In this document: positions 40,944-60,510 of the stretch, piece by piece
Layout: the number at the start of each line of letters is the position of its first letter
Position numbering within the stretch: position 1 is the first letter of the stretch
NCBI RefSeq assembly: GCF_041361465.1
Contig: NZ_JBGKAC010000001.1
Location: 1,054,001 to 1,118,000, forward strand
Reading direction: 5' to 3'
DNA from: Halobaculum sp. MBLA0143
GTDB taxonomy: Archaea; Halobacteriota; Halobacteria; Halobacteriales; Haloferacaceae
DNA: 64,000 nt
Made by a program: the position numbers and the translations under genes
Notes under the pieces: model-generated
The model's database searches: none
What the model saw: only the letters and a program-made list of their open reading frames with translations
What the model was told of the DNA's origin: nothing

Positions 40944-43900
40944 ATGACACGGCAGTCACCATCTTACCGCACGAATCGGAACCTGTTCTCCAACCACTAC
41001 CTCTCGAATCGGCTGCGGGAGACGGACCAGTGGACCGAGCCGGAGACCGCGGCGGTTCGGGACGCCTACGAGGAGATTCGCGGGCTGTACGAGGACCGTG
41101 CCCACCGCGTGGACGACTACAGCGAGGCACAGTTGGAAGAGGAGTTCATCAAGCCGGTGTTCGACGCGCTCGGAATCCAGTACAACGTCCAGCAGACGGT
41201 CAGCGACGTGAACCGGCGACCGGACTACGGCTTCTTCGAGACGGCAGCGGCGGCAGACGTGGCGTTCGACCGCGAGGACCCCTACGCGGAGGCGGTCGCG
41301 GTCGCGGACGCGAAGTTCTGGGGGCGGAAGCTGGACACCCGGGGGGACAAACTCCGGGAGTTCGAGAACCCCAGCTACCAGATCCACGTCTACCTCGAAG
41401 AGACGGCGGCGTCGTGGGCGGTGCTCACGAACGGGCGGCAGTGGCGGCTGTACTACGGCCCGACGAGCCACCGGCTGGACTCCTACTACGAGATCGACCT
41501 GCCGGAACTGCTGTCACGCGTCGCCGAGGGCGGGGAGGGGAGTCTGGAGGCGTTCCGGGAGTTCTACCTGTTCTTCCGACACGAGGCGTTCGTGCCGGAC
41601 GAGCGTGGCGACTGCTTCCTGGACGACGTGTACGAGCAGTCGAACCGGTTCTCCGAGGAGTTGGGGGCGGACCTCCAGGACAACATCTACGAGGCGATTC
41701 GGGTGTTGGCGGCGGGGTTCCTCGACACGAACGACGATCTCGACAGAGACGATCTCGACGACGAGACGTTGGATCTGATCCACGACAGTTCGCTGATCTA
41801 CCTCTACCGGCTGATCTTCGTCCTGTACGCGGAAAGCGAGGAACGGGATCTGCTCCCGACGGACAACGAGGTGTACGAGTCGCAGTTCAGCCTGAACAGT
41901 CGCAAGGAGACGGTCGCGGCGGAGTTGGACGCGACGGGGACGGCGTACCACGACTGGCAGACGCGGCTGTGGGAGGAGTTGGACGACCTGTTCACGCTGA
42001 TCGACCAGGGGAGCGAGGCGATGGGGATCCCGCCCGAGAGTCTCCAGGTGCCGGCGTACAACGGCGGGCTGTTCGACACGGACCCGGGGGCCGACGCGGA
42101 CGAGGAGTCGCGGTTCCTGGCGACCCACGAGGTGGACGACTCGCATCTGGCGCGGGTGATCGACCTGTTGAGCCGCCAGGAGACGGGTGACGGCGCGGGT
42201 GCGAGCCCAGGAGCGGGCACGGACGCGGAGGCGGGCGCAGTCGGCAGTCCGGAGAAGACGTTCGTCGACTACTCCTCGTTGGACGTGCGGCAGTTGGGGA
42301 GTATCTACGAGGGACTCCTGGAGTACGAGCTGAATCTGGCGAGCGAGCCGAAGACGCTCGACGACGACGGCGACAGCGAGACGTACGAGTCGGCCGGCGC
42401 GGACGCCGCGGACGAGGAGATCGTCGTGGAGCCGGGTGAGGTGTATCTCACGACGGACTCGGGCGAGCGGAAGTCGACGGGGTCGTACTACACGCCGGAG
42501 TACGTGGTGGAGTACATCGTCGAGGAGACGCTGGGGCCGCAGGTGGACGCGATCCGCGAGGAGCTGTTGGACGAGCACGTCGACGCGACGGGCGACCGGG
42601 GGTTCGCGGAGCGGTTCACCGAGGAGATCCTGGATCTGACCGTGCTCGATCCGGCGATGGGGAGCGGCCACTTCCTGGTGAACGCGGTGGACTACCTCGC
42701 GCGGGAGATCATCGACGCCCGCGAGAAGCAGGATCGGCAGGCGGTCGACGACGACCGCGCCGAGGACATCGAGATCACGACCGACGACGGTGAGCGCCGC
42801 GACATCAACTGGGCGCGTCGCCAGGTGGCCAAGCAGTGTCTGTACGGCGTGGACGTGAACCCGTTGGCGACGGAGTTGGCGAAGGTGTCGCTGTGGCTCC
42901 GCACGCTCGCGGCCGGCAAGCCGCTCGCGTTCCTGGACCACCACCTGAAGACGGGCAACTCCCTCGTCGGGTCGAACATCTACGAGGTGTTGTCGAACGG
43001 GGACAGTGGGCAGGCGACGCTGGACGACTTCCGGGCGGCGCGGACGCGGACGCTGTCGCACGTCCAGGGGCTGATGGCGGATCTCGTCGACATCGAGAAC
43101 GACGATCTGGCGAGCATCAAGCAGATGCAGGCGACGTACGAGGAGATGCGCTCGGACCCCCTGTACCGCCGGTTGTTCGAGCTGGCGAACGTCCACACCG
43201 CCGAGCGGTTCGGCCTGGACGTGCCCGACGACGCCTACCGGAGGATGGCCGGCGCGATCGAGTCCGAAGCCGAGTGGAACGAGACTGTGACCGGTGAGGA
43301 CTGGTTCGTCTCCGCGCAGGCGATGGCCGACGAGGAACTGTTCTTCCACTGGGAACTGGAGTTCCCCGAGGTGTTCGTGAACGGTGACGGACGGGCTGGG
43401 GGGTTCGACGCCGTGATCGGGAATCCGCCGTGGGGTGCATCCATCTCTAAGCCCACGAAGGATTACATAGCCGAACAACTCAGCCTGAACCCATCTGCGA
43501 GTGATACATTCGCTGCGTTCACGAAGCTGTCTGGAAATCTCGACTGTGAAGACGCTCGGTTTGGAATGATCCTGCCGAGTGGGTGGCAGACCTCTGATAA
43601 ATACGCAGAGTTCAGAGAGTGGACGGTCGAGAACTACAGTCTGTCAAAGATCGTGAACTTACCGTACGACGTGTTCAGCGAAGCGTACGTAGACACTTCG
43701 ATATTTGTTCTCGACAGACAGGCCAGCAGAAAAACCGAAGGTGAAGTCGGAGTAATAAATTACGGAAGGAAAGAACGGGTGAACGAGATTGACAACGACG
43801 AGGACGGCTTGGAAGCTGTCGACTACAGTCGTTGGTTCGCGGAGGCACTAGATCCAGAAGACGAGTTCGAGTTTATATCGTATCTGCCGCCGAGAGAGCT

Positions 43901-45164
43901 GAGTGTAGAAGAAAAAGTAGCAGAACGTGGAGTCCCCCTGAGAGAGATCGCCGACGTGCAGCGTGGCATCACGCCGTTCGATCTCGCTAAAGAACCCGGA
44001 CAAAATCGTTCCCCAGCGCTTGACGGCGATCTTCGTCGATACAGATACACGTTCACCGGGAACAGCTACGTTGAGTATCACGAAGACATTGCAGAGTACA
44101 AGCCAGAGCGGTATTTCCAGGGAGACCGGCTCATTCTTCGAGAACTGATTAGCCGACAGTTCCGGCTACAGCTTGCTCGCACCGATCAGGACTTTGTGAC
44201 GAACAAGTCCTATCAGAGTATTCTACTCGAAGACGAGAGTTACCGCCTGGGCTATCTGCTCGGTGTGTTGAACTCGAAGCTCTTGTCGTTTTACCACATC
44301 AAACAGTCTGCTGTTGCCCTCAGAGACGACTTCCCGAAGATCGTTCTGTCAGAGACGAGGAGCCTGCCAATCCCCGAAATTACAGACGAAGAATCGAGTG
44401 AAATCTCTGTGGACCCGTCTCAGGTGCAGTTTGACTCCGAAACGGAAGAGATCAAGCTGAACGGAGACACGACGGTGAGTGTCGGCACAACGCAGGAGAC
44501 ACAGAGAGTGATCTCCGAACTGACGACTCACCTGATGGATTTGAGATCCAACTACGAGGCGCTGAATCTCGATCTGGAGTCGTATCTCGGTGAGTACCGA
44601 ACTGGGCCTACTGTAGACGATCTCGGCTTCGTACAGATCTGCGAGGGGAAGTCATTAATCAAGGAGACGACGGAGCAACGGCCGAATCTCATGGCAGGGA
44701 GAGCCGTAGTTAATGTCGAGAGCGACAACTCTGTCGAAATTAAAATCTCTGGAAGATTCAAGCCAGACGACGACCGCGACGTGGAGACTGACCAGTGGGG
44801 GTACACGGAGTCTAAGCCAATTCCCGCCCTACGAATCACTGACCTGACCCAGAACGAGGCTCTGCTGTTGAAGAATTTCGTCCCGGTGGCGGTCGACAGA
44901 GGACTATCGAACTTCCGGAAGGAGGCAGCTAAGTCGATCTCTCTCGTGGACCGACTACTGAGACTAGAACTGCCGGAGATGAATGATGTCCGTGAGAGAG
45001 TAGAGCGCTACTCCGAGGTCGCTGCCCGGGGGGAAGAACTGAAGACACAAATCGTAGGAATTGACGATCTGTTGGATCAGATCGTCTACAGGCTGTTTGG
45101 GTTGTCCGCTGACGAGATCGCGGTCGTCGAAGACAGCATAGTGACCAGAAAGCTCACAGAGTGA
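40944..45164 (+). CDS. Type IIG restriction-modification enzyme (Eco57I-like)
   Basis: A 1406-residue single-chain nuclease-methyltransferase. The N-terminal nuclease has a PD-(D/E)xK pattern: PDYGFF with Asp94, then VADAKFW with Asp122 and Lys124. After a helical region come the adenine methylase motifs: STGSYYTPEYVVEYIVEETL, LDPAMGSGHFLVN (about residue 568) and NPPW (827-830). The C-terminal about 575 residues carry the target-recognition domain (RGVPLREIADVQRGITP). GC content and codon use change abruptly one codon after NPPW: before it is haloarchaeal GC-rich, after it much more AT-rich. No separate methylase or specificity gene is nearby. Confidence 0.9.
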   Translation: MTRQSPSYRTNRNLFSNHYLSNRLRETDQWTEPETAAVRDAYEEIRGLYEDRAHRVDDYSEAQLEEEFIKPVFDALGIQYNVQQTVSDVNRRPDYGFFETAAAADVAFDREDPYAEAVAVADAKFWGRKLDTRGDKLREFENPSYQIHVYLEETAASWAVLTNGRQWRLYYGPTSHRLDSYYEIDLPELLSRVAEGGEGSLEAFREFYLFFRHEAFVPDERGDCFLDDVYEQSNRFSEELGADLQDNIYEAIRVLAAGFLDTNDDLDRDDLDDETLDLIHDSSLIYLYRLIFVLYAESEERDLLPTDNEVYESQFSLNSRKETVAAELDATGTAYHDWQTRLWEELDDLFTLIDQGSEAMGIPPESLQVPAYNGGLFDTDPGADADEESRFLATHEVDDSHLARVIDLLSRQETGDGAGASPGAGTDAEAGAVGSPEKTFVDYSSLDVRQLGSIYEGLLEYELNLASEPKTLDDDGDSETYESAGADAADEEIVVEPGEVYLTTDSGERKSTGSYYTPEYVVEYIVEETLGPQVDAIREELLDEHVDATGDRGFAERFTEEILDLTVLDPAMGSGHFLVNAVDYLAREIIDAREKQDRQAVDDDRAEDIEITTDDGERRDINWARRQVAKQCLYGVDVNPLATELAKVSLWLRTLAAGKPLAFLDHHLKTGNSLVGSNIYEVLSNGDSGQATLDDFRAARTRTLSHVQGLMADLVDIENDDLASIKQMQATYEEMRSDPLYRRLFELANVHTAERFGLDVPDDAYRRMAGAIESEAEWNETVTGEDWFVSAQAMADEELFFHWELEFPEVFVNGDGRAGGFDAVIGNPPWGASISKPTKDYIAEQLSLNPSASDTFAAFTKLSGNLDCEDARFGMILPSGWQTSDKYAEFREWTVENYSLSKIVNLPYDVFSEAYVDTSIFVLDRQASRKTEGEVGVINYGRKERVNEIDNDEDGLEAVDYSRWFAEALDPEDEFEFISYLPPRELSVEEKVAERGVPLREIADVQRGITPFDLAKEPGQNRSPALDGDLRRYRYTFTGNSYVEYHEDIAEYKPERYFQGDRLILRELISRQFRLQLARTDQDFVTNKSYQSILLEDESYRLGYLLGVLNSKLLSFYHIKQSAVALRDDFPKIVLSETRSLPIPEITDEESSEISVDPSQVQFDSETEEIKLNGDTTVSVGTTQETQRVISELTTHLMDLRSNYEALNLDLESYLGEYRTGPTVDDLGFVQICEGKSLIKETTEQRPNLMAGRAVVNVESDNSVEIKISGRFKPDDDRDVETDQWGYTESKPIPALRITDLTQNEALLLKNFVPVAVDRGLSNFRKEAAKSISLVDRLLRLELPEMNDVRERVERYSEVAARGEELKTQIVGIDDLLDQIVYRLFGLSADEIAVVEDSIVTRKLTE

Positions 45165-45287
45165 GTACCTCAGAACGGATAGTTCACTACATAAATATAG
45201 CAGGTAGACTGCTGTCCACCTGTCCGTTCGCGCAACACGCGACTCACCAATTCTTTCGAATATAGCCTAAACTCTCTAAAACGGTAA

Positions 45288-45297
45288 GATATAAAAG
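45288..45297 (+). promoter_or_regulatory. Strong TATA box before structured leader
   Basis: GATATAAAAG, in an AT-rich stretch (45180-45300) downstream of the restriction enzyme, predicts transcription to begin near 45315-45320, exactly where an RNA three-way junction starts. Confidence 0.65.
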
Positions 45298-45317
45298 CCA
45301 ACGAGACCACAGTCTAA

Positions 45318-45389
45318 GTACGACACGCGGGCGTCGTCACTGCAAAAGTGGCGAGGGTGCCCTTAACACCCTCACCCTGCGTGTCGTGC
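45318..45389 (+). ncRNA. Three-way-junction RNA leader (candidate riboswitch or sRNA)
   Basis: A 14-bp closing stem pairs 45318-45331 with 45376-45389 (two G-U wobbles). Inside are two hairpins: 45334-45341 with 45347-45354 (loop GCAAA), and 45355-45359 with 45367-45371, extendable to 7 bp, with the 7-base loop CCCTTAA. The RNA starts about where the TATA box predicts. It ends 14 bases before the ATG of a 150-aa protein gene. A further 7-bp hairpin (45422-45428/45435-45441) lies inside that gene's first codons. Structured 5' leaders are rare in mostly leaderless haloarchaea. It could also be an independent small RNA. Confidence 0.55.
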
Positions 45390-45403
45390 GCGGCTCACAC
45401 GAC

Positions 45404-45856
45404 ATGTGTTCGAACGATTCTCCGTCACAAAAGCGTGACGGCACGGCCGAGCCCGACGTATCGACCGACATCTCCCGGCAGCGACTGCAGTCCGACTACG
45501 GCGCGTCCATCGACAGCCTGCGCGACACCCGCCTCCCGGAGACCAGGATCGAGGAGTTGGTGACACTCTGTGTCGAGACCCAACAGCGACTCGACCACGG
45601 CCGGGGCGACGGCGAGCAGACGCTGACGCTCGTCGCGGCCGTCGGGGAGGCGATGGCGGACCTGGAGGCAGCGACCGTCGTCGACGAGTCGGAACTGCCG
45701 GAGTCGCGGGCGCTGGAGACCGGCGTCCCCGCAGAGGAGTACGTCCTCACCCCGACCGAGCGCGACGAGGCACTCGCCGCCCTCTCGTCGCTGCTGCACA
45801 CGGCCGTCGAGACCCCGCCGGCGTCGCCGGCGACGACCGCCGGCGCGGCGGACTGA
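45404..45856 (+). CDS. Acidic protein of unknown function after structured leader
   Basis: A 150-residue soluble protein. Its N-terminus CSNDSPSQKRDGTAEP is disordered; from about residue 25 it is helical and acidic (LQSDYGASIDSLRDTRLPET, VTLCVETQQRLDHGRGDGEQ, TPTERDEALAALSSLLHTAV). Start ATG 45404, with an in-frame GTG at 45386. No family recognised. Its DNA is GC-rich, unlike the AT-rich DNA just before, so it may be native sequence next to an insertion. Confidence 0.65.
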   Translation: MCSNDSPSQKRDGTAEPDVSTDISRQRLQSDYGASIDSLRDTRLPETRIEELVTLCVETQQRLDHGRGDGEQTLTLVAAVGEAMADLEAATVVDESELPESRALETGVPAEEYVLTPTERDEALAALSSLLHTAVETPPASPATTAGAAD

Positions 45857-45988
45857 CCGCCGCGCGGCTCGCGGTCCCGCGCTCCTCCCTCGCGGTTTCT
45901 CTTCGCACCGACGCTGACGCTCGACCGACGCGACGGTAGTGAGTGACACGGTGTTCGGCGGGGGTCGCCTGCCCGACGATCAGAAAAA

Positions 45989-45997
45989 GATTTATAA
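45989..45997 (+). promoter_or_regulatory. TATA box with purine-rich BRE
   Basis: GATTTATAACC is preceded by CAGAAAAA, a good archaeal BRE-TATA pair. It predicts a transcription start near 46020, with no protein-coding frame following. Confidence 0.6.
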
Positions 45998-46019
45998 CCT
46001 TTGGCGTCTTATCGTCATA

Positions 46020-46205
46020 TCCGAGCGCTGGTGCGGGCGTTGAGAGCCCGTCTCATCGTCCCTGCCGAGAGGTAAGACGCGAGACCGAACGAAGCTTTGA
46101 AATTCGACTCACACGCTTGCCCTTCCGGGTGAGCACAAGGGTTTGCGACGCCGCACTGGATAGGTCTCGCGGGAAAACGGGGACGAGGGCGGGAACACGC
46201 ACACC
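46020..46205 (+). ncRNA. Candidate structured non-coding RNA of about 185 nt
   Basis: The region after the TATA box folds extensively. Stem A (46056-46064 with 46178-46186) encloses stem B (46078-46086 with 46163-46171, nine perfect pairs CGCGAGACC/GGTCTCGCG), with an asymmetric internal loop holding CCGAGAGG and GGAAAA. A 5' hairpin pairs 46034-46038 with 46046-46050. Inside stem B an irregular hairpin spans 46114-46147 (CGC/GCG and CCCTT/AAGGG). The ends may close through GTGCG (46031-46035) and CGCAC (46199-46203). It does not show the conserved RNase P or SRP RNA motifs that I know. It converges on the orphan gene. Confidence 0.5.
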
Positions 46206-46212
46206 TTGCTGT

Positions 46213-47013
46213 CTACGAAATCCGCTCAGCGGCAGCAGCGTATTCGTTCCGCCACAACCAGTTCTTAACCCGCCGCGTGCTGTTTGTCTGTAGCAATTCT
46301 CCGCTATTGCTCCCGAAGCAGCCATTAAACCAGGCTTTTGCCCGCGTTGACTGTTTATTTGCCAGTCTCTCTTCACGAGTGGGAACCTGGTAGCTGTGCC
46401 GACCGGCTCCAACTTTGTTGTACACTTCCCAAAACCGATCTCCGTTGTCACTGGCTGCTGTCCACAGCTCGCACTCCTCTTGTAGGTCGCTGCTAGTGAT
46501 CTCGCAATCTCTGGCAATTGCAGCCGCGAGTAGATCCGCAAAGTACGACTGTGGGTAATAAGACTCGGACCTGTGGCAGGGAACCGCGGGCGTGTCCCTG
46601 ATACGCAGTGTCTTCAGTGCCCTTCCAAGCCGTTCTGCCTGTCTCTCGTCACCATCGGCAATCACCGCGGTTGCCGACTCGAACGGATTGAGTTTGTTGT
46701 ATAGGACTGCTGAGTGCGCAGCCTCCGCCTGTAAGTCCTGATTGGGGGGCTCTGTGCAGCGACCGATAGCAATTCTTCCCGGGAATCGCCTGATCAGCTC
46801 ACCCACAGGGACCTCGTTCAGGTTGAGTTGACGGGACTTCGTGGCGAACGGCTTGTACTGCTCGTTTTGTTCGTCACAACAGATGTTGAGCAGTTGCGCT
46901 TCCTGCTCTCGTGTCACCGCAACACCGACTGTGACCAAGGTTCCGCTTTCTTCTGTCGCGTCGAAGGCAACCGACCTCTTGTACTCGTCACCGCCGATCA
47001 GCAACGAATTCAT
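46213..47013 (-). CDS. Low-GC orphan protein, possibly RNase H-like
   Basis: A 266-residue protein whose DNA is visibly poorer in GC than its neighbours, and which has more Asn, Gln and Cys than typical haloarchaeal proteins, suggesting transfer. Early beta strands around SVAFDATEESGTLVTVGVAV, a middle VIADGDERQAERLGRALK and a later SYFADLLAAAIARD give Asp spacing reminiscent of RNase H-fold families such as DUF3800; this is a weak inference. ATG 47013 is preferred over TTG 47058. It converges with the candidate ncRNA. Confidence 0.65.
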   Translation of the reverse strand: MNSLLIGGDEYKRSVAFDATEESGTLVTVGVAVTREQEAQLLNICCDEQNEQYKPFATKSRQLNLNEVPVGELIRRFPGRIAIGRCTEPPNQDLQAEAAHSAVLYNKLNPFESATAVIADGDERQAERLGRALKTLRIRDTPAVPCHRSESYYPQSYFADLLAAAIARDCEITSSDLQEECELWTAASDNGDRFWEVYNKVGAGRHSYQVPTREERLANKQSTRAKAWFNGCFGSNSGELLQTNSTRRVKNWLWRNEYAAAAERIS

Positions 47014-53797: not shown

Positions 53798-54694
53798 TCA
53801 CTCCCGAGTGACGGCGAGCAGTTCCTCGTGTGCTCGCCCGTTCGAGGCGACGAGCCCGGTCGCGCCCGGCGTCCAGCGGTCGCCGCCGGCGTCGGTGACG
53901 CGCCCGCCGGCGAGCCGGACGAGGTGGACGCCCGCGACCGTGTCCCAGTCGTTCAGTTCGACGGTGGAGACGGCAGCGTGGAGCTGTCCCGACGCGACGC
54001 CCGCGAGCACGAGCTGTGCACACCCCAGCCGCCGGAGGTCGCCGAACCGTGTGAGCAACGGCTCCGCGACGGCCGCGAACGCGGCGCGATCGCTCGCGCT
54101 CGGGCCGAACAACGGGTTGACGAGGAACTGTCCCGGGTCAGACTCCGCCGTGACGGACAGTCTCGTTCGGTCGGTGTCGCCCGCGGCGTCGCTGGTGTCG
54201 CCCGCGGCGTCGCTGGTGTCGCTGACGGCGCTGTGAGCGCCGCCGGGAGCGTCGCCGTCGTCACCTTCGACGGCAGTGACACCGGCGGGCTCGCGCCAGG
54301 CGGTCGTCTCGTCGGCGACGTAGGCGTCGTTCAGCGCGGGGGCGACGGTGGCGGCAGCGACCGGCTCCCCGTCGACGACGCGCGCGACGCTCGTCGCCCA
54401 GACGGGGTGGCCGCCGACGAAGTTGACCGTGCCGTCGATGGGGTCGACGACCCACGCCGGGCTGGACGCCGGAACCCGGTCGGGCGCCGAGCCCTCCTCG
54501 CCGACCACCGGCTCTGCGGGGTAGTCGGCGGCGAGTCGGTCGGTCACGACACGCTGGGCGGCACGGTCGGCAGCGGTGACGCTGTCGACGCCGTCGCCTT
54601 TGCGCTCGGCGTCCAGGTCGGCACGGAACCCAGCCGAGGCTCGGGCGGCGCCGGCCCGGGCGGCGGCCAGACAGTCGCGGGTGTGGTCGTCCAT
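53798..54694 (-). CDS. Inositol monophosphatase / FBPase-family phosphatase
   Basis: A 298-residue Mg2+-dependent sugar phosphatase. Metal-site motifs are VVGEEGS, WVVDPIDGTVNFVGGHPVWA and DWDTVAGVHLVRLAGG. A short insert with a SDAAGDT duplication (about residues 155-175) is seen between the two lobes. ATG 54694 gives DDHTRDCLAAARAGA; the frame continues upstream without similarity. Substrate may be inositol phosphate or fructose-1,6-bisphosphate. Confidence 0.88.
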   Translation of the reverse strand: MDDHTRDCLAAARAGAARASAGFRADLDAERKGDGVDSVTAADRAAQRVVTDRLAADYPAEPVVGEEGSAPDRVPASSPAWVVDPIDGTVNFVGGHPVWATSVARVVDGEPVAAATVAPALNDAYVADETTAWREPAGVTAVEGDDGDAPGGAHSAVSDTSDAAGDTSDAAGDTDRTRLSVTAESDPGQFLVNPLFGPSASDRAAFAAVAEPLLTRFGDLRRLGCAQLVLAGVASGQLHAAVSTVELNDWDTVAGVHLVRLAGGRVTDAGGDRWTPGATGLVASNGRAHEELLAVTRE

Positions 54695-54782
54695 CGGGTC
54701 GTCCGTGTGTCGGCTGTGGGGTAGCTCCGTCGGTCCCGGCGTGTCGGGGGAGTTTTGTTCACGGGGCATCTACCGAAGACCC

Positions 54783-55451
54783 GTGACACGAGACGCTCCA
54801 TCTACGACACGGCGTGACTGGCTCGCTGCGGTCGCGGCCGGTGGCACGCTGGCGACGGCCGGCTGTCTCGGCGGTGGCGGCGGCAGTGCCGGCGGTAGTA
54901 CCTCGTACGGCTGTGGAGACGGCGGCGAGACGGTGTCCGAGGCCGGACAGCCGGCGCTGGGGCCGACGGACGCCGCCGTGACGGTCCAGGTGTGGGAGGA
55001 CTTCTCCTGTCCCCACTGTGCCACTTGGAGCACGGAGCACTTCCCGCAGCTGCGCGAGGAGTACCTGGGCGACGGCCAGGTACGGTACGAACACCACGAT
55101 TTCCCGATTCCGGTGCGCGACTGGGCGTGGGGGACGGCGAGTGCCAGCCGCGCGGTGTACGAGGCGACCGACGGGGCGACCTTCTTCGACTTCGTGAAGC
55201 GAGTGTACGAGCAACAGAGCGACTACAGTCTCCAGGTGGTCGGCGACGCCGCAGACGCCGCCGGCGTGGATCCGTGTACGGCAGTCGAGGCCGCCCGCGG
55301 GGACACCTACCGGCCAGTGATCGAGGCCGACAAACAGACCGGGCTCGACACCGGAGTGGAGGGGACGCCGGCCGTGTTCGTGAACGGGCAGGCCGTCTCC
55401 GGCGAACGGACGTTCGAGAACGTGGCGCCGGTGATCGACGACGCGCTGTAG
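54783..55451 (+). CDS. DsbA-like thioredoxin-domain lipoprotein
   Basis: A 222-residue exported protein. The Tat signal TTRRDWLAAVAAGGTLATAGC ends in a lipobox, then a Gly/Ser linker. The DsbA-type domain carries FSCPHCATWSTEH with the redox CPHC pair and the cis-Pro in VEGTPAVFVNGQ. It likely forms or isomerises disulfides outside the cell, perhaps on proteins such as the Cys-rich peptide 2.4 kb downstream (inference). GTG 54783. Confidence 0.9.
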   Translation: MTRDAPSTTRRDWLAAVAAGGTLATAGCLGGGGGSAGGSTSYGCGDGGETVSEAGQPALGPTDAAVTVQVWEDFSCPHCATWSTEHFPQLREEYLGDGQVRYEHHDFPIPVRDWAWGTASASRAVYEATDGATFFDFVKRVYEQQSDYSLQVVGDAADAAGVDPCTAVEAARGDTYRPVIEADKQTGLDTGVEGTPAVFVNGQAVSGERTFENVAPVIDDAL

Positions 55452-57252: not shown

Positions 57253-57566
57253 CGACGCCCGTCTGGTTCTCGGAGTCGGTGAGCCCCGAACCCGGAGTCC
57301 CCTCGTCCGACGTGCGCGGTGTGACGGCAGTCGGTCCAGTCGGAGACGACCTGCCACGTCGTCCACTCTGTCGCGCACCCGCGTGGGGGCGTGGCCGCTT
57401 CGAGGCGACCTGCCGGGAGACGTTCGCCGCCGCCGACGCGGACGAACGCCTCACGCGCCACAGTCTGGCCACCGAGACACAGACGACGTCGACGACTCTC
57501 TGAGGGGCCCGACCAGGTGACGCCCCACCGTCACACACTGCCCGATTCGTTTCGATGTTTCCAACT

Positions 57567-57591
57567 GATCGTGCGCGGACTCACTCGTGAC
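57567..57591 (+). repeat. Upstream copy of module-duplication repeat
   Basis: Twenty-five bases, GATCGTGCGCGGACTCACTC then GTGAC, recur at 59083-59107 with two mismatches, 1516 bases away. Each copy lies upstream of a Cys-rich peptide sequence, so it marks the boundary of a tandem duplication. Confidence 0.75.
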
Positions 57592-57780
57592 GCTCCGTAA
57601 CGGAAACCGCCCGGTACGTCCCGCCGGCGTCTCCGTCCCGTGGCTCGATTATCTTCGCCGGCAGGGCGGTCGACCACGTCTCCGTCGAAGAGAATACTGT
57701 GAGAAAAGGCGAAAGAAAAGCTATCGAGAATTCTTTGTCCTAATCTATAACACGTCTATTCCACACAGAAATAGCCGTAA

Positions 57781-57790
57781 CTAATATATG
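57781..57790 (+). promoter_or_regulatory. TATA box of the Cys-rich peptide gene
   Basis: CTAATATATG lies about 28 bases before ATG 57814, predicting a leaderless transcript. A second TATA-like TCTATAACAC is at 57744-57753. Confidence 0.65.
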
Positions 57791-57813
57791 CTGACGCGTA
57801 TATCTCCGAGTGC

Positions 57814-58359
57814 ATGTCGGAAGACAACAGCAGCGGTCGGAAGCGCAGAGACATCCTGAAGGCACTGCCCGTGGCGACAGTCGGCGTCCCCATGGCCTCC
57901 GGCGTCGGTGCGGCACTGCCGGACACCAGCGAGACGTCCGACGAACGGCTGACGCGGGAAGAGAAGGCCCGACAGGAGGGGTACGACTGGAACGAGGACT
58001 GGATCAACCAGGACATGATCGGCGAGAGCTCGGTCGAGACCACCGAGACGTTCACCAAAGACCAGACGAACTGTCTGGGCATCGACGCGACCATCGCCGG
58101 CATCGACTTCACGCTGGAGGTGTGCTTCTCGCCGTGTGAAGCCGAGCTCACCGTGACGGTGTTCGGTCAGTCGGAGTCGACGACGGTGACCTGCTCGGAG
58201 TACTGCAGGAGCCTCTCGCTCAACGGCGGGGCGGCGTACATCGACATCGAGGTCTGCTTCAACTGGGACCGGAACTGTGTGGACCTCGAGGCCGAGGGCT
58301 GTGTCTGGGAGATCACCAGCTGGAACTGCGACACGACGAACATCTCCGCCTGCGCCTAA
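57814..58359 (+). CDS. Tat-exported cysteine-rich peptide precursor (halocin-like)
   Basis: A 181-residue precursor. The twin-arginine signal RKRRDILKALPVATVGVPMA occupies residues 9-28, then an acidic pro-region to about residue 85. The C-terminal about 95 residues hold all ten Cys (87, 104, 108, 127, 131, 148, 155, 163, 172, 180), enough for five disulfides, in beta-rich sequence (TLEVCFSPCEAELTVTVFGQ, then CSEYC ... GGAAYIDIEVCFNWDRNC). Architecture recalls halocin C8 precursors (Tat signal, pro-part, Cys-rich mature peptide), but the sequence differs. It is followed by a small membrane protein gene, and the pair is duplicated downstream. Confidence 0.8.
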   Translation: MSEDNSSGRKRRDILKALPVATVGVPMASGVGAALPDTSETSDERLTREEKARQEGYDWNEDWINQDMIGESSVETTETFTKDQTNCLGIDATIAGIDFTLEVCFSPCEAELTVTVFGQSESTTVTCSEYCRSLSLNGGAAYIDIEVCFNWDRNCVDLEAEGCVWEITSWNCDTTNISACA

Positions 58360-58445
58360 CCGAGCAGCCTCCTGCTCGGGTCGGCCGGCAGAGTTCAGTC
58401 CGTTCGACCACGGCAGCCCGGGCCGGCCGGTGCGGCCGCCCGACG

Positions 58446-58452
58446 TTTTTTT
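58446..58452 (+). terminator. Poly-T terminator
   Basis: Seven consecutive T followed by CTCTC, after a GC-rich stretch 87 bases below the peptide gene stop, is a plausible archaeal terminator that would separate the peptide and membrane-protein transcripts. Confidence 0.45.
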
Positions 58453-58497
58453 CTCTCGACGAGCAGACCGTTCTTCTGTCTCTGCAACAAGCAAGAA

Positions 58498-58506
58498 TGC
58501 TTATAT
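58498..58506 (+). promoter_or_regulatory. TATA box of the first membrane protein
   Basis: TGCTTATAT is centred about 28 bases before ATG 58531 and selects that start over ATG 58513. Confidence 0.6.
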
Positions 58507-58530
58507 GGATGAATGATAAACAGCTATGGC

Positions 58531-58965
58531 ATGGACCCAAGCGAATCGACACAGCAGAGTGGAGATCAGAGATGGCGGTACGGTGTCGTCGGCGGACTGC
58601 TCGCCGCCCCGTCGGTGGCTCTCAGCTACTGGCAGACGGGGTCGGAGGTGTCGGTCGTCTCGGTCGCGCTCGTCGCCCTCCTCGTCGGGTACGTGGCGAA
58701 ACGTCGCTCGGCGTACGGTGACGGAATCGGGGCTCGCGTCGGTGTGGTCGGTGGACTGCCGATCCTCTGGGCGAGCTACGACTTCGCGGTGTCCAGCGTC
58801 GGGCTGTCGAACCCGTCGTGGTTCACGGGGGCGAGCCTCGTGCTCCTCGGCGGCTTCACGATCGTCGGGTTCGGAATGGCCGGGTTGCTCGGAGAAGTCG
58901 GCGCGAGAGTCGGCGGGTGGCTGGCCGATCGGACCAGTCGGAGCCGTCGTGTCGCTCACAGCTAA
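58531..58965 (+). CDS. Four-helix membrane protein, candidate immunity protein (copy 1)
   Basis: A 144-residue protein with four predicted helices (about 15-34, 39-56, 68-89, 97-123), a Gly-rich pattern and a basic end. It starts MDPSES..., collinear with the paralogue at 59401 (MEPYES...), and shares SYW-x-TGSEVSV, LGYVA/LVGYVA, GAR-x-G, PILW-x-SYD, SNP-x-WFT and LLGE. It has loose similarity to small haloarchaeal DUF5518-type proteins. Its place after a secreted Cys-rich peptide suggests self-protection or peptide export; this is inference. Confidence 0.75.
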   Translation: MDPSESTQQSGDQRWRYGVVGGLLAAPSVALSYWQTGSEVSVVSVALVALLVGYVAKRRSAYGDGIGARVGVVGGLPILWASYDFAVSSVGLSNPSWFTGASLVLLGGFTIVGFGMAGLLGEVGARVGGWLADRTSRSRRVAHS

Positions 58966-59082
58966 CCGAGTAGACGATACGTTCGACGACGTGTCGCCCG
59001 CCGGTGTCCGGCGACTCGGGCCAACGGCCGGCGCTTACGACGCCGTCTCGGAGGAGTCCGACGCGCCGAACTCCTCCCGACC

Positions 59083-59107
59083 GACCGTGCGCGGACTCGC
59101 TCGTGAC
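59083..59107 (+). repeat. Downstream copy of module-duplication repeat
   Basis: Matches 57567-57591 at 23 of 25 positions. Only 38 bases separate it from the Cys-rich coding remnant, against about 600 in copy 1, which maps a deletion of about 560 bases. Confidence 0.75.
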
Positions 59108-59139
59108 CCACAGCACTCGATCGGACACCGAGCCGCTCG

Positions 59140-59370
59140 GTGCCCTGTTCGGAGGCGTGTGAAAGTTGCTCAGTCGACGTCGGTGCGGCTACCCTCGACA
59201 TCCAGCTGTGCCTAAGCCGGGACAAACGATGTCTGGAGTACGAAGCCGAGGGACGTGTGTGGTCTGTTGGTAGCGGGGGCTGTGAAACAGTGGGCGCTGC
59301 TGTCTGTATCCGACTGAGCCTCTATCACGGATTTGCCTCCGCTAGGATGTGGTGGAAAAATGCAAAATAA
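59140..59370 (+). pseudogene. Truncated second copy of the Cys-rich peptide gene
   Basis: The frame aligns with the last 55 residues of the intact precursor: CSEAC / CSEYC, GAATLDIQLC / GAAYIDIEVC, YEAEGRVW / LEAEGCVW and final Cys. Signal peptide, pro-region and promoter are missing, one Cys is replaced by Arg, and the C-terminus reads on into about 20 unrelated residues. It is a decayed duplicate. Confidence 0.75.
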
Positions 59371-59400
59371 CTTGTACAGGGGACTGAGAGTTCACGCACG

Positions 59401-59841
59401 ATGGAACCGTACGAGTCAGAACAGCCGAGGAGAAGCCACGTCGGCAAGTACAGCGTCGTCGGGGGTGTACTCTCTGCCGTGCTCGTAGCGACTAGCTACT
59501 GGGAGACCGGATCTGAGGTGTCTGTCACCCCAATTCTCTTCGTCACGCTCGCACTGGGGTACGTGGCAGAGCACCGATCGAGTTACACACGTGAGGTCGG
59601 TGCCCGCGCCGGGTTGATCGGGGGAACTCCGATCCTCTGGGGGAGTTACGACCTCGCGGTGTCTATCGTCGAGTTCTCGAACCCGACGTGGTTCACACCG
59701 GTGAGTCTCGCCTCTCTCGCTGGGTTCGTGCTTCTTATCTTCGGAGCGACGGCGTTGCTCGGGGAGCTCGGCGGGAGGACCGGGCGCTGGTTGGCCGAAC
59801 ACCGTGGCACCGAGTCGCGTACAGCCCACGGTCACCAGTAG
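59401..59841 (+). CDS. Four-helix membrane protein, candidate immunity protein (copy 2)
   Basis: A 146-residue paralogue of the 58531 protein with the same helix plan and conserved blocks (GSEVSV, GYVAEHRSSY, GGTPILWGSYDLAVS, SNPTWFTPVSL, LLGELGGRTGRWLAE). A TATA-like AAAATAAC at about 59363-59370 sits roughly 30 bases upstream. It remains intact although its partner peptide gene has decayed, which is what an orphan immunity gene would look like. Confidence 0.75.
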   Translation: MEPYESEQPRRSHVGKYSVVGGVLSAVLVATSYWETGSEVSVTPILFVTLALGYVAEHRSSYTREVGARAGLIGGTPILWGSYDLAVSIVEFSNPTWFTPVSLASLAGFVLLIFGATALLGELGGRTGRWLAEHRGTESRTAHGHQ

Positions 59842-60052: not shown

Positions 60053-60137
60053 GCGCGGGTAGCCAAGCTAGGCCAACGGCGCAGCGCTTAGGACGCTGTC
60101 TCGTAGGAGTCCGCCGGTTCGAATCCGGTCCCGCGCA
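60053..60137 (+). tRNA. tRNA-Leu (UAG)
   Basis: The cloverleaf is complete: acceptor GCGCGGG (60053-60059) pairs with CCCGCGC (60130-60136), discriminator A60137; D stem GCC/GGC; anticodon stem CAGCG/CGCTG with loop CTTAGGA, anticodon TAG; long variable arm with CTC/GAG stem; T stem and loop GCCGG-TTCGAAT-CCGGT. The long variable arm and anticodon identify leucine (CUA codons). CCA is not encoded. The 3' part is copied four times downstream. Confidence 0.92.
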
Positions 60138-60510
60138 GTGAGGAGCGAAGCGACGAACGAGCAGGAGCCGATTCGAACCAGGGAGCGAACGAAGTGAGCG
60201 ACCGTGGTTCGAATCCGGTCCCGCGCAGTGAACGAACGCAGCGACGAACGAGCAGGAGCCGATTCGAACCTGGGAACGAACGAAGTGAGCGACCGTGGTT
60301 CGAATCCGGTCCCGCGCAGTGAACAAACGCAGCGACAAACGACAGGAACGAATCCGAACCGGGGAACGGACGAAGTGAGCGACCGTGGTTCGAATCCGGT
60401 CCCGCGCAGTGAACGAACGCAGCGACAAACGGACAGGAACGAATCCGAACCAGGGAGCGAACGAAGTGAGCGACCGTGGTTCGAATCCGATCCCACACGA
60501 TCTCCGAGGA
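60113..60510 (+). repeat. 90-base tandem array derived from the tRNA-Leu 3' end
   Basis: After the tRNA, the T-arm and acceptor 3' sequence (GGTTCGAATCCGGTCCCGCG then CA) recurs with CCCGCGCA at 60130, 60220, 60311 and 60401, and in a decayed form (TCCCACACGA) at 60491. The period is 90-91 bases. Each unit also has a conserved AACGAAGTGAGCGACCGTGG block and GATTCGAACC, the exact reverse complement of GGTTCGAATC, so each unit can form an inverted repeat. Large open frames here are repeats in disguise. Confidence 0.9.

Follow-up and report, generated by a model that had tools for sequence, protein, structure and literature searches.

The sequences of only a few halocins are known, and halocin C8 is the one for which immunity is best worked out. 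In the halocin C8 family (TIGR04449; ProC8/HalI, of Natrinema and relatives), immunity is part of the precursor itself, as HalI (PMC11509114). Another antagonistic precursor from haloarchaea, HmHapP/HFX_0892, is activated by a protease (PMC12893001), its active part being an alpha-helical N-terminus freed by halolysin. The window studied here, meaning the whole stretch of 64,000 nucleotides analysed from Halobaculum sp. MBLA0143 (G000:C1:1054001-1118000), holds a gene for a Tat-exported Cys-rich precursor, a gene for a small membrane protein after it, and a second, partly broken copy of this pair. We think it reasonably likely that the locus represents an undescribed family of haloarchaeal secreted, putatively antagonistic peptides with putative membrane immunity partners. 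The window peptide is a probable halocin-like new family that stands outside halocin C8 and has a putative separate immunity partner in the membrane.

The precursor gene (57814-58359, forward strand) was delimited from the sequence and from homologue searches and encodes 181 aa, with a signal at approximately residues 1-34, an acidic pro-region at approximately 35-84 and a ten-Cys domain at approximately 85-181 (nt 58066-58356). The signal is of the twin-arginine type, KRRDILK (KRRDILKALPVATVGVPMASGVGAA), and the ten cysteines are all found within residues 87-180, in the last 97 residues or so, in line with the initial annotation, which had described a Tat precursor with ten cysteines in its C-terminal part. 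Finding at least 10 Cys in 98 residues has a chance of about 1e-8 to 3e-7 at Cys frequencies of 0.8-1.2%. The start of the feature had been set at 57567, a position that is not coding and falls inside a 31-nt direct repeat. The C-terminal domain is acidic, about 10.7 kDa in size and predicted to be strand-rich, with eight beta-strands in residues 86-180 of a weak structure model (mean pLDDT 55). A fold search with this model returned generic beta folds only (no E-value below 0.001; best Z 8.0), and nothing is claimed from it, because the matches are generic and the model is of low confidence. The precursor had no match in Pfam, NCBIfam, PADLOC or solved structures apart from a sub-threshold Tat-signal match in NCBIfam, and the PHROGs match was marginal (E 0.066). 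The pro-region of about 50 residues matched nothing in Pfam, the Halocin 8-like N-terminal domain PF22862 included. The suggestion that the peptide family is undescribed is thus upheld, as it has no Pfam or NCBIfam model. An exported protein of another kind is predicted about 2.4 kb upstream (54576-55451), a lipoprotein with a thioredoxin-like CPHC motif that could form disulfides in exported proteins.

Halocin C8 shares with the window peptide the Tat export, the pro-region and a C-terminal Cys-rich domain of similar size. However, the C8 peptide is Gly-rich and hydrophobic whereas the window peptide is predicted to be strand-rich, and the C8 immunity lies inside the precursor whereas a separate membrane protein is proposed here. 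Membership of the peptide in the C8 family (TIGR04449) was rejected, since an hmmscan search with an E-value limit of 10 did not return the C8 model, which agrees with what had been noted from the sequence. HmHapP/HFX_0892, compared by description only, is likewise a secreted haloarchaeal precursor, with an antagonistic activity that is putative for the window peptide; its active helical N-terminus differs from the Cys-rich, strand-rich C-terminal domain of the window peptide.

A further parallel is seen in the gene arrangement, as C8-like loci often have a small membrane gene directly downstream, like the window pair. Elsewhere in the same genome there is a C8-like gene (TIGR04449, E 1.5e-11; G000:C1:330049-330258; L062 904-1716), followed 10 nt later by a gene (L062 1727-2125) for a 132-aa protein that has four hydrophobic segments and matches no family. 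A small gene with at least two hydrophobic segments was found directly downstream in 15 of the 30 C8-like loci compared to 2 of the 76 controls (P 2e-8), a value that is generous because the controls were picked by codon-position composition, the segments were counted with a simple hydropathy rule and some of the loci are near-identical copies (L070-L072, L065/L066). The downstream genes of the C8-like loci (L064-L092) have 2-4 segments and belong to several sequence types; larger multi-pass proteins come after some of them. In L067, L068, L073 and L074, where the peptide is closest to classical halocin C8, the small membrane gene downstream is absent, which fits the C8 immunity being within the precursor (PMC11509114). 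The halocin C8 loci contained no DUF5518 protein, the type found in the window, and the membrane partners there are therefore analogous and not demonstrated homologues.

The membrane genes of the window are both clear members of DUF5518 (PF17647), scoring over its gathering cut-off of 27 bits. The first (58531-58965, forward strand; Pfam E 2.4e-10, 41 bits) encodes a putative immunity protein of 144 aa, and the second (59401-59841, forward strand; E 1.5e-13, 51.3 bits) is intact and encodes 146 aa. A 144-aa four-helix membrane protein after the precursor had been reported from the sequence, and the structure model likewise has four helices, at low confidence (pLDDT 50). Neither of the weak models of peptide and membrane protein (mean pLDDT 55 and 50) gave an informative fold match. 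The two DUF5518 copies are 53% identical, and their dN/dS of about 0.39 points to purifying selection. A TATA-like box at 58501-58506 (forward strand) is centred at -27 of the start at 58531, which is why this start was preferred over the longer ORF start at 58513; its function is presumed. Another TATA-like box, assigned to the peptide gene by consensus, lies at 57782-57789 (forward strand) and is centred at -28 of a leaderless start, and between the two genes there is a run of seven T (58446-58452, forward strand), which may be an archaeal terminator. Judged from sequence, these elements suggest separate leaderless transcripts for the peptide and the first membrane gene.

DUF5518, a family of no known function, is for the most part encoded away from secreted peptides, whereas the copies in the window adjoin one. 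The domain occurs in 142 of the 148 genomes of the window's family, at 1-13 copies per genome; the two found in the host genome (3.58 Mb, two contigs) are both in the window. At the other DUF5518 loci examined, a comparable Tat/Cys-rich gene was not found, and one had a lipoprotein-like neighbour (L011). As a peptide of this kind is mostly missing beside DUF5518, most DUF5518 proteins do something else, and a domain that is near-universal in haloarchaea and seldom has such a neighbour does not as such define an immunity family. Immunity is a possible role for a subset of DUF5518 only and not its general role.

Homologues of the peptide are rare and patchy, occurring in 10 (the window's included) of the about 440 haloarchaeal genomes examined, and the other nine all belong to one other family of the same order. 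A single-sequence search led to G162 (31% over residues 9-175, E 5.7e-9), and profile searches to G408, G223, G215, G168 and G194 and next to G427, G429 and G210; the order-level search gave no further genomes. For members of the window's own family that were not in the class and order samples, the search used the single sequence only. In the wider alignment of homologues the number of cysteines ranges from 4 to 10, and two are invariant. Of the weak class-level matches, L020 (G408) and L037 (G194) are relatives by profile search. Others were rejected: L010 and L022 are located in other genes, L009, L021, L023 and L024 match the signal region only, judged by query range, and for L036 and L038 there is overlap with other genes.

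When the peptide loci were searched with a DUF5518 profile, with Pfam as confirmation, a DUF5518 gene was seen beside the peptide twice in the window and also downstream of it in G162 and upstream of it in G215, on the same strand in both, and in divergent orientation at a distance of 207 nt in G427. The ten peptide-bearing genomes have about 37 DUF5518 genes, giving a chance of about 0.3% for one to lie within 1.5 kb of a locus. The adjacency in 4 of 7 distinct loci then has a chance of about 2e-9; if the window is left out, that for 3 of 6 is about 5e-7. It is thus exceedingly improbable that the neighbourhood arose by chance, the peptide being one of many Tat proteins, even with a domain as common as DUF5518 is. 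The expectation that the two genes co-occur as neighbours therefore holds for the window, G162, G215 and G427, and does not extend to the G194/G210 and G408/G223 homologues, where an adjacent small membrane gene of DUF5518 type was not found: the former stand alone at near-normal GC, and the latter adjoin an ABC-2 permease gene. G168, whose contig ends at the locus, counts neither for nor against a partner.

The partner can also be of another kind. In G429, the peptide gene is followed about 80 nt downstream, in the place of DUF5518, by a gene for an unrelated 125-aa hydrophobic protein, which has no match in Pfam, NCBIfam or PHROGs. G163 and G429 are colinear around the peptide site and share this hydrophobic membrane gene at 85.7% nucleotide identity, while a 1.47-kb stretch that includes the peptide gene of G429 is absent in G163, next to transposase remnants. 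The membrane gene kept in G163 has a dN/dS of about 0.44, and a second homologue in G163 is also without a peptide. The second unit of the window has the same pattern, with the peptide broken and DUF5518 intact. A reverse search from the G429-type membrane protein led to a copy in G419, downstream of a Tat-signal secreted protein in low-GC DNA; this secreted protein was not significantly similar to the peptide family profile.

Losing or breaking the peptide while keeping the partner is a pattern that fits a toxin plus immunity, although drift or transposon activity can likewise lead to the loss of one gene of two. The membrane protein had been proposed as either an immunity or an export partner. 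Of these the partner swap and the orphan partners favour immunity, since the Tat pathway supplies export, and the export part of the proposal is less favoured. We regard it as rather improbable that the membrane protein serves the peptide in processing or export, for example as a protease-like, release or anchoring factor: adjacency alone would be equally compatible with such a role, but export needs are already served by Tat, intact partner genes persist without the peptide (the second unit of the window, G163), a non-homologous protein replaces DUF5518 in G429, and the DUF5518 alignment, in which glycines and a proline are conserved, has no obvious catalytic residues.

The surroundings of the pair suggest mobility. 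Outside the window, the GC content drops sharply at the pair loci, over 1.5-2 kb, to 34-51% compared to 60-65% in the regions around them; the dip of the window is milder, the segment with the two pairs having 63% GC compared to 69% for the window and ending at a tRNA-Leu gene (60053-60137, forward strand), which borders this AT-richer island in the GC profile. The cassette of G427 is flanked by a 299-bp direct repeat (90%; L048 4739-5035 and 6566-6864) that covers part of an acetyltransferase gene, and that of G429 by transposase remnants. The GC dips and the flanking repeat suggest that the peptide and membrane genes move as a unit. Two other features of the window may be noted, a tandem array directly after the tRNA-Leu (60116-60494; 91-nt unit, 4.2 copies, each with the tRNA-Leu 3' end) and the most AT-rich stretch (43251-46751; 51-57% GC), a possible further mobile island.

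Within the window itself, a degenerate tRNA-Leu gene fragment lies between the two pairs (59031-59070, forward strand), identical to the tRNA at 60053-60137 in 33 of 40 positions, whereas the best of 200 shuffles reached 27/40. Copies of the 31-nt direct repeat stand ahead of the first pair (57561-57591) and of the second (59077-59107) and are identical in 27 of 31 positions (87%), which exceeds all shuffles (maximum 21/31). The tRNA fragment and the repeats give the two units the look of a tRNA-associated insert that was duplicated and of which the second copy has decayed. A second related pair, consisting of a remnant and an intact membrane gene at 59401, had been recognized in the initial annotation, and both are confirmed; translation is unlikely to start from the GTG at 59140, because neither the remnant frame nor the upstream 180 nt encodes a recognisable signal peptide. 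We place the remnant, a 5'-truncated peptide gene and probable pseudogene, at 59143-59370 (forward strand); it aligns with residues 115-180 of the precursor (41% identity, E 2.6e-13). In frame, its dN to the precursor is 0.47 and its dS 1.29, which is saturated and was not used. With a tRNA gene adjoining and the tRNA fragment and direct repeats at hand, the pair could be thought to belong to a virus or plasmid, for example as a superinfection exclusion or addiction module. This is very unlikely, as single-sequence searches yielded no relatives in plasmid, phage or viral contig collections, and the lack of a PADLOC match and the marginal PHROGs match also speak against it. Genome contigs searched in the same way likewise yielded none.

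It is likewise unlikely, though less so, that the locus is an ordinary accessory surface pair, in which the secreted peptide has an envelope, adhesion or signalling role and the membrane protein serves it as receptor or anchor. Killing by the peptide is something that we infer, an acidic strand-rich domain of this size resembles many surface domains, and homologues standing alone at near-normal GC, as in G194/G210, would suit such a role. Against this stand the toxin-like dynamics of the locus, that is, the partner swap, the orphan partners, the cassette islands and the parallel with the halocin C8 loci.

In the explanation that we favour, a secreted antagonistic peptide with a protective membrane protein, the locus would be a small, horizontally moving two-gene cassette that is duplicated here. 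The precursor, carrying the signal seen in its sequence, would be exported folded via the Tat pathway, and its C-terminal domain of about 97 residues, acidic, disulfide-rich and probably all-beta, may be released or held on the surface and would attack the envelope of related haloarchaea. The DUF5518 protein, with its approximately four membrane helices, would shield or block the target in the membrane of the producer. The genes of the first pair may each be driven from their own leaderless promoter, as the TATA positions suggest, which would allow expression of the immunity gene by itself. The second copy has visibly lost the front of its peptide gene, and its membrane gene has stayed intact.

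More tentatively, and with somewhat more doubt than confidence, haloarchaea may have a general two-gene design of antagonism, in which Tat-exported Cys-rich or strand-rich precursors are combined with exchangeable small polytopic membrane immunity proteins (DUF5518 and several unrelated families), and which moves as AT-rich cassettes and leaves orphan immunity genes behind. Besides C8 there would be another peptide family, unrelated to it and with a membrane partner of its own, and half of the sampled C8-like loci have a small membrane gene directly downstream. If true, these would provide concrete candidates for immunity determinants that are still missing for archaeal antimicrobials, and some DUF5518 proteins would have their first possible role.
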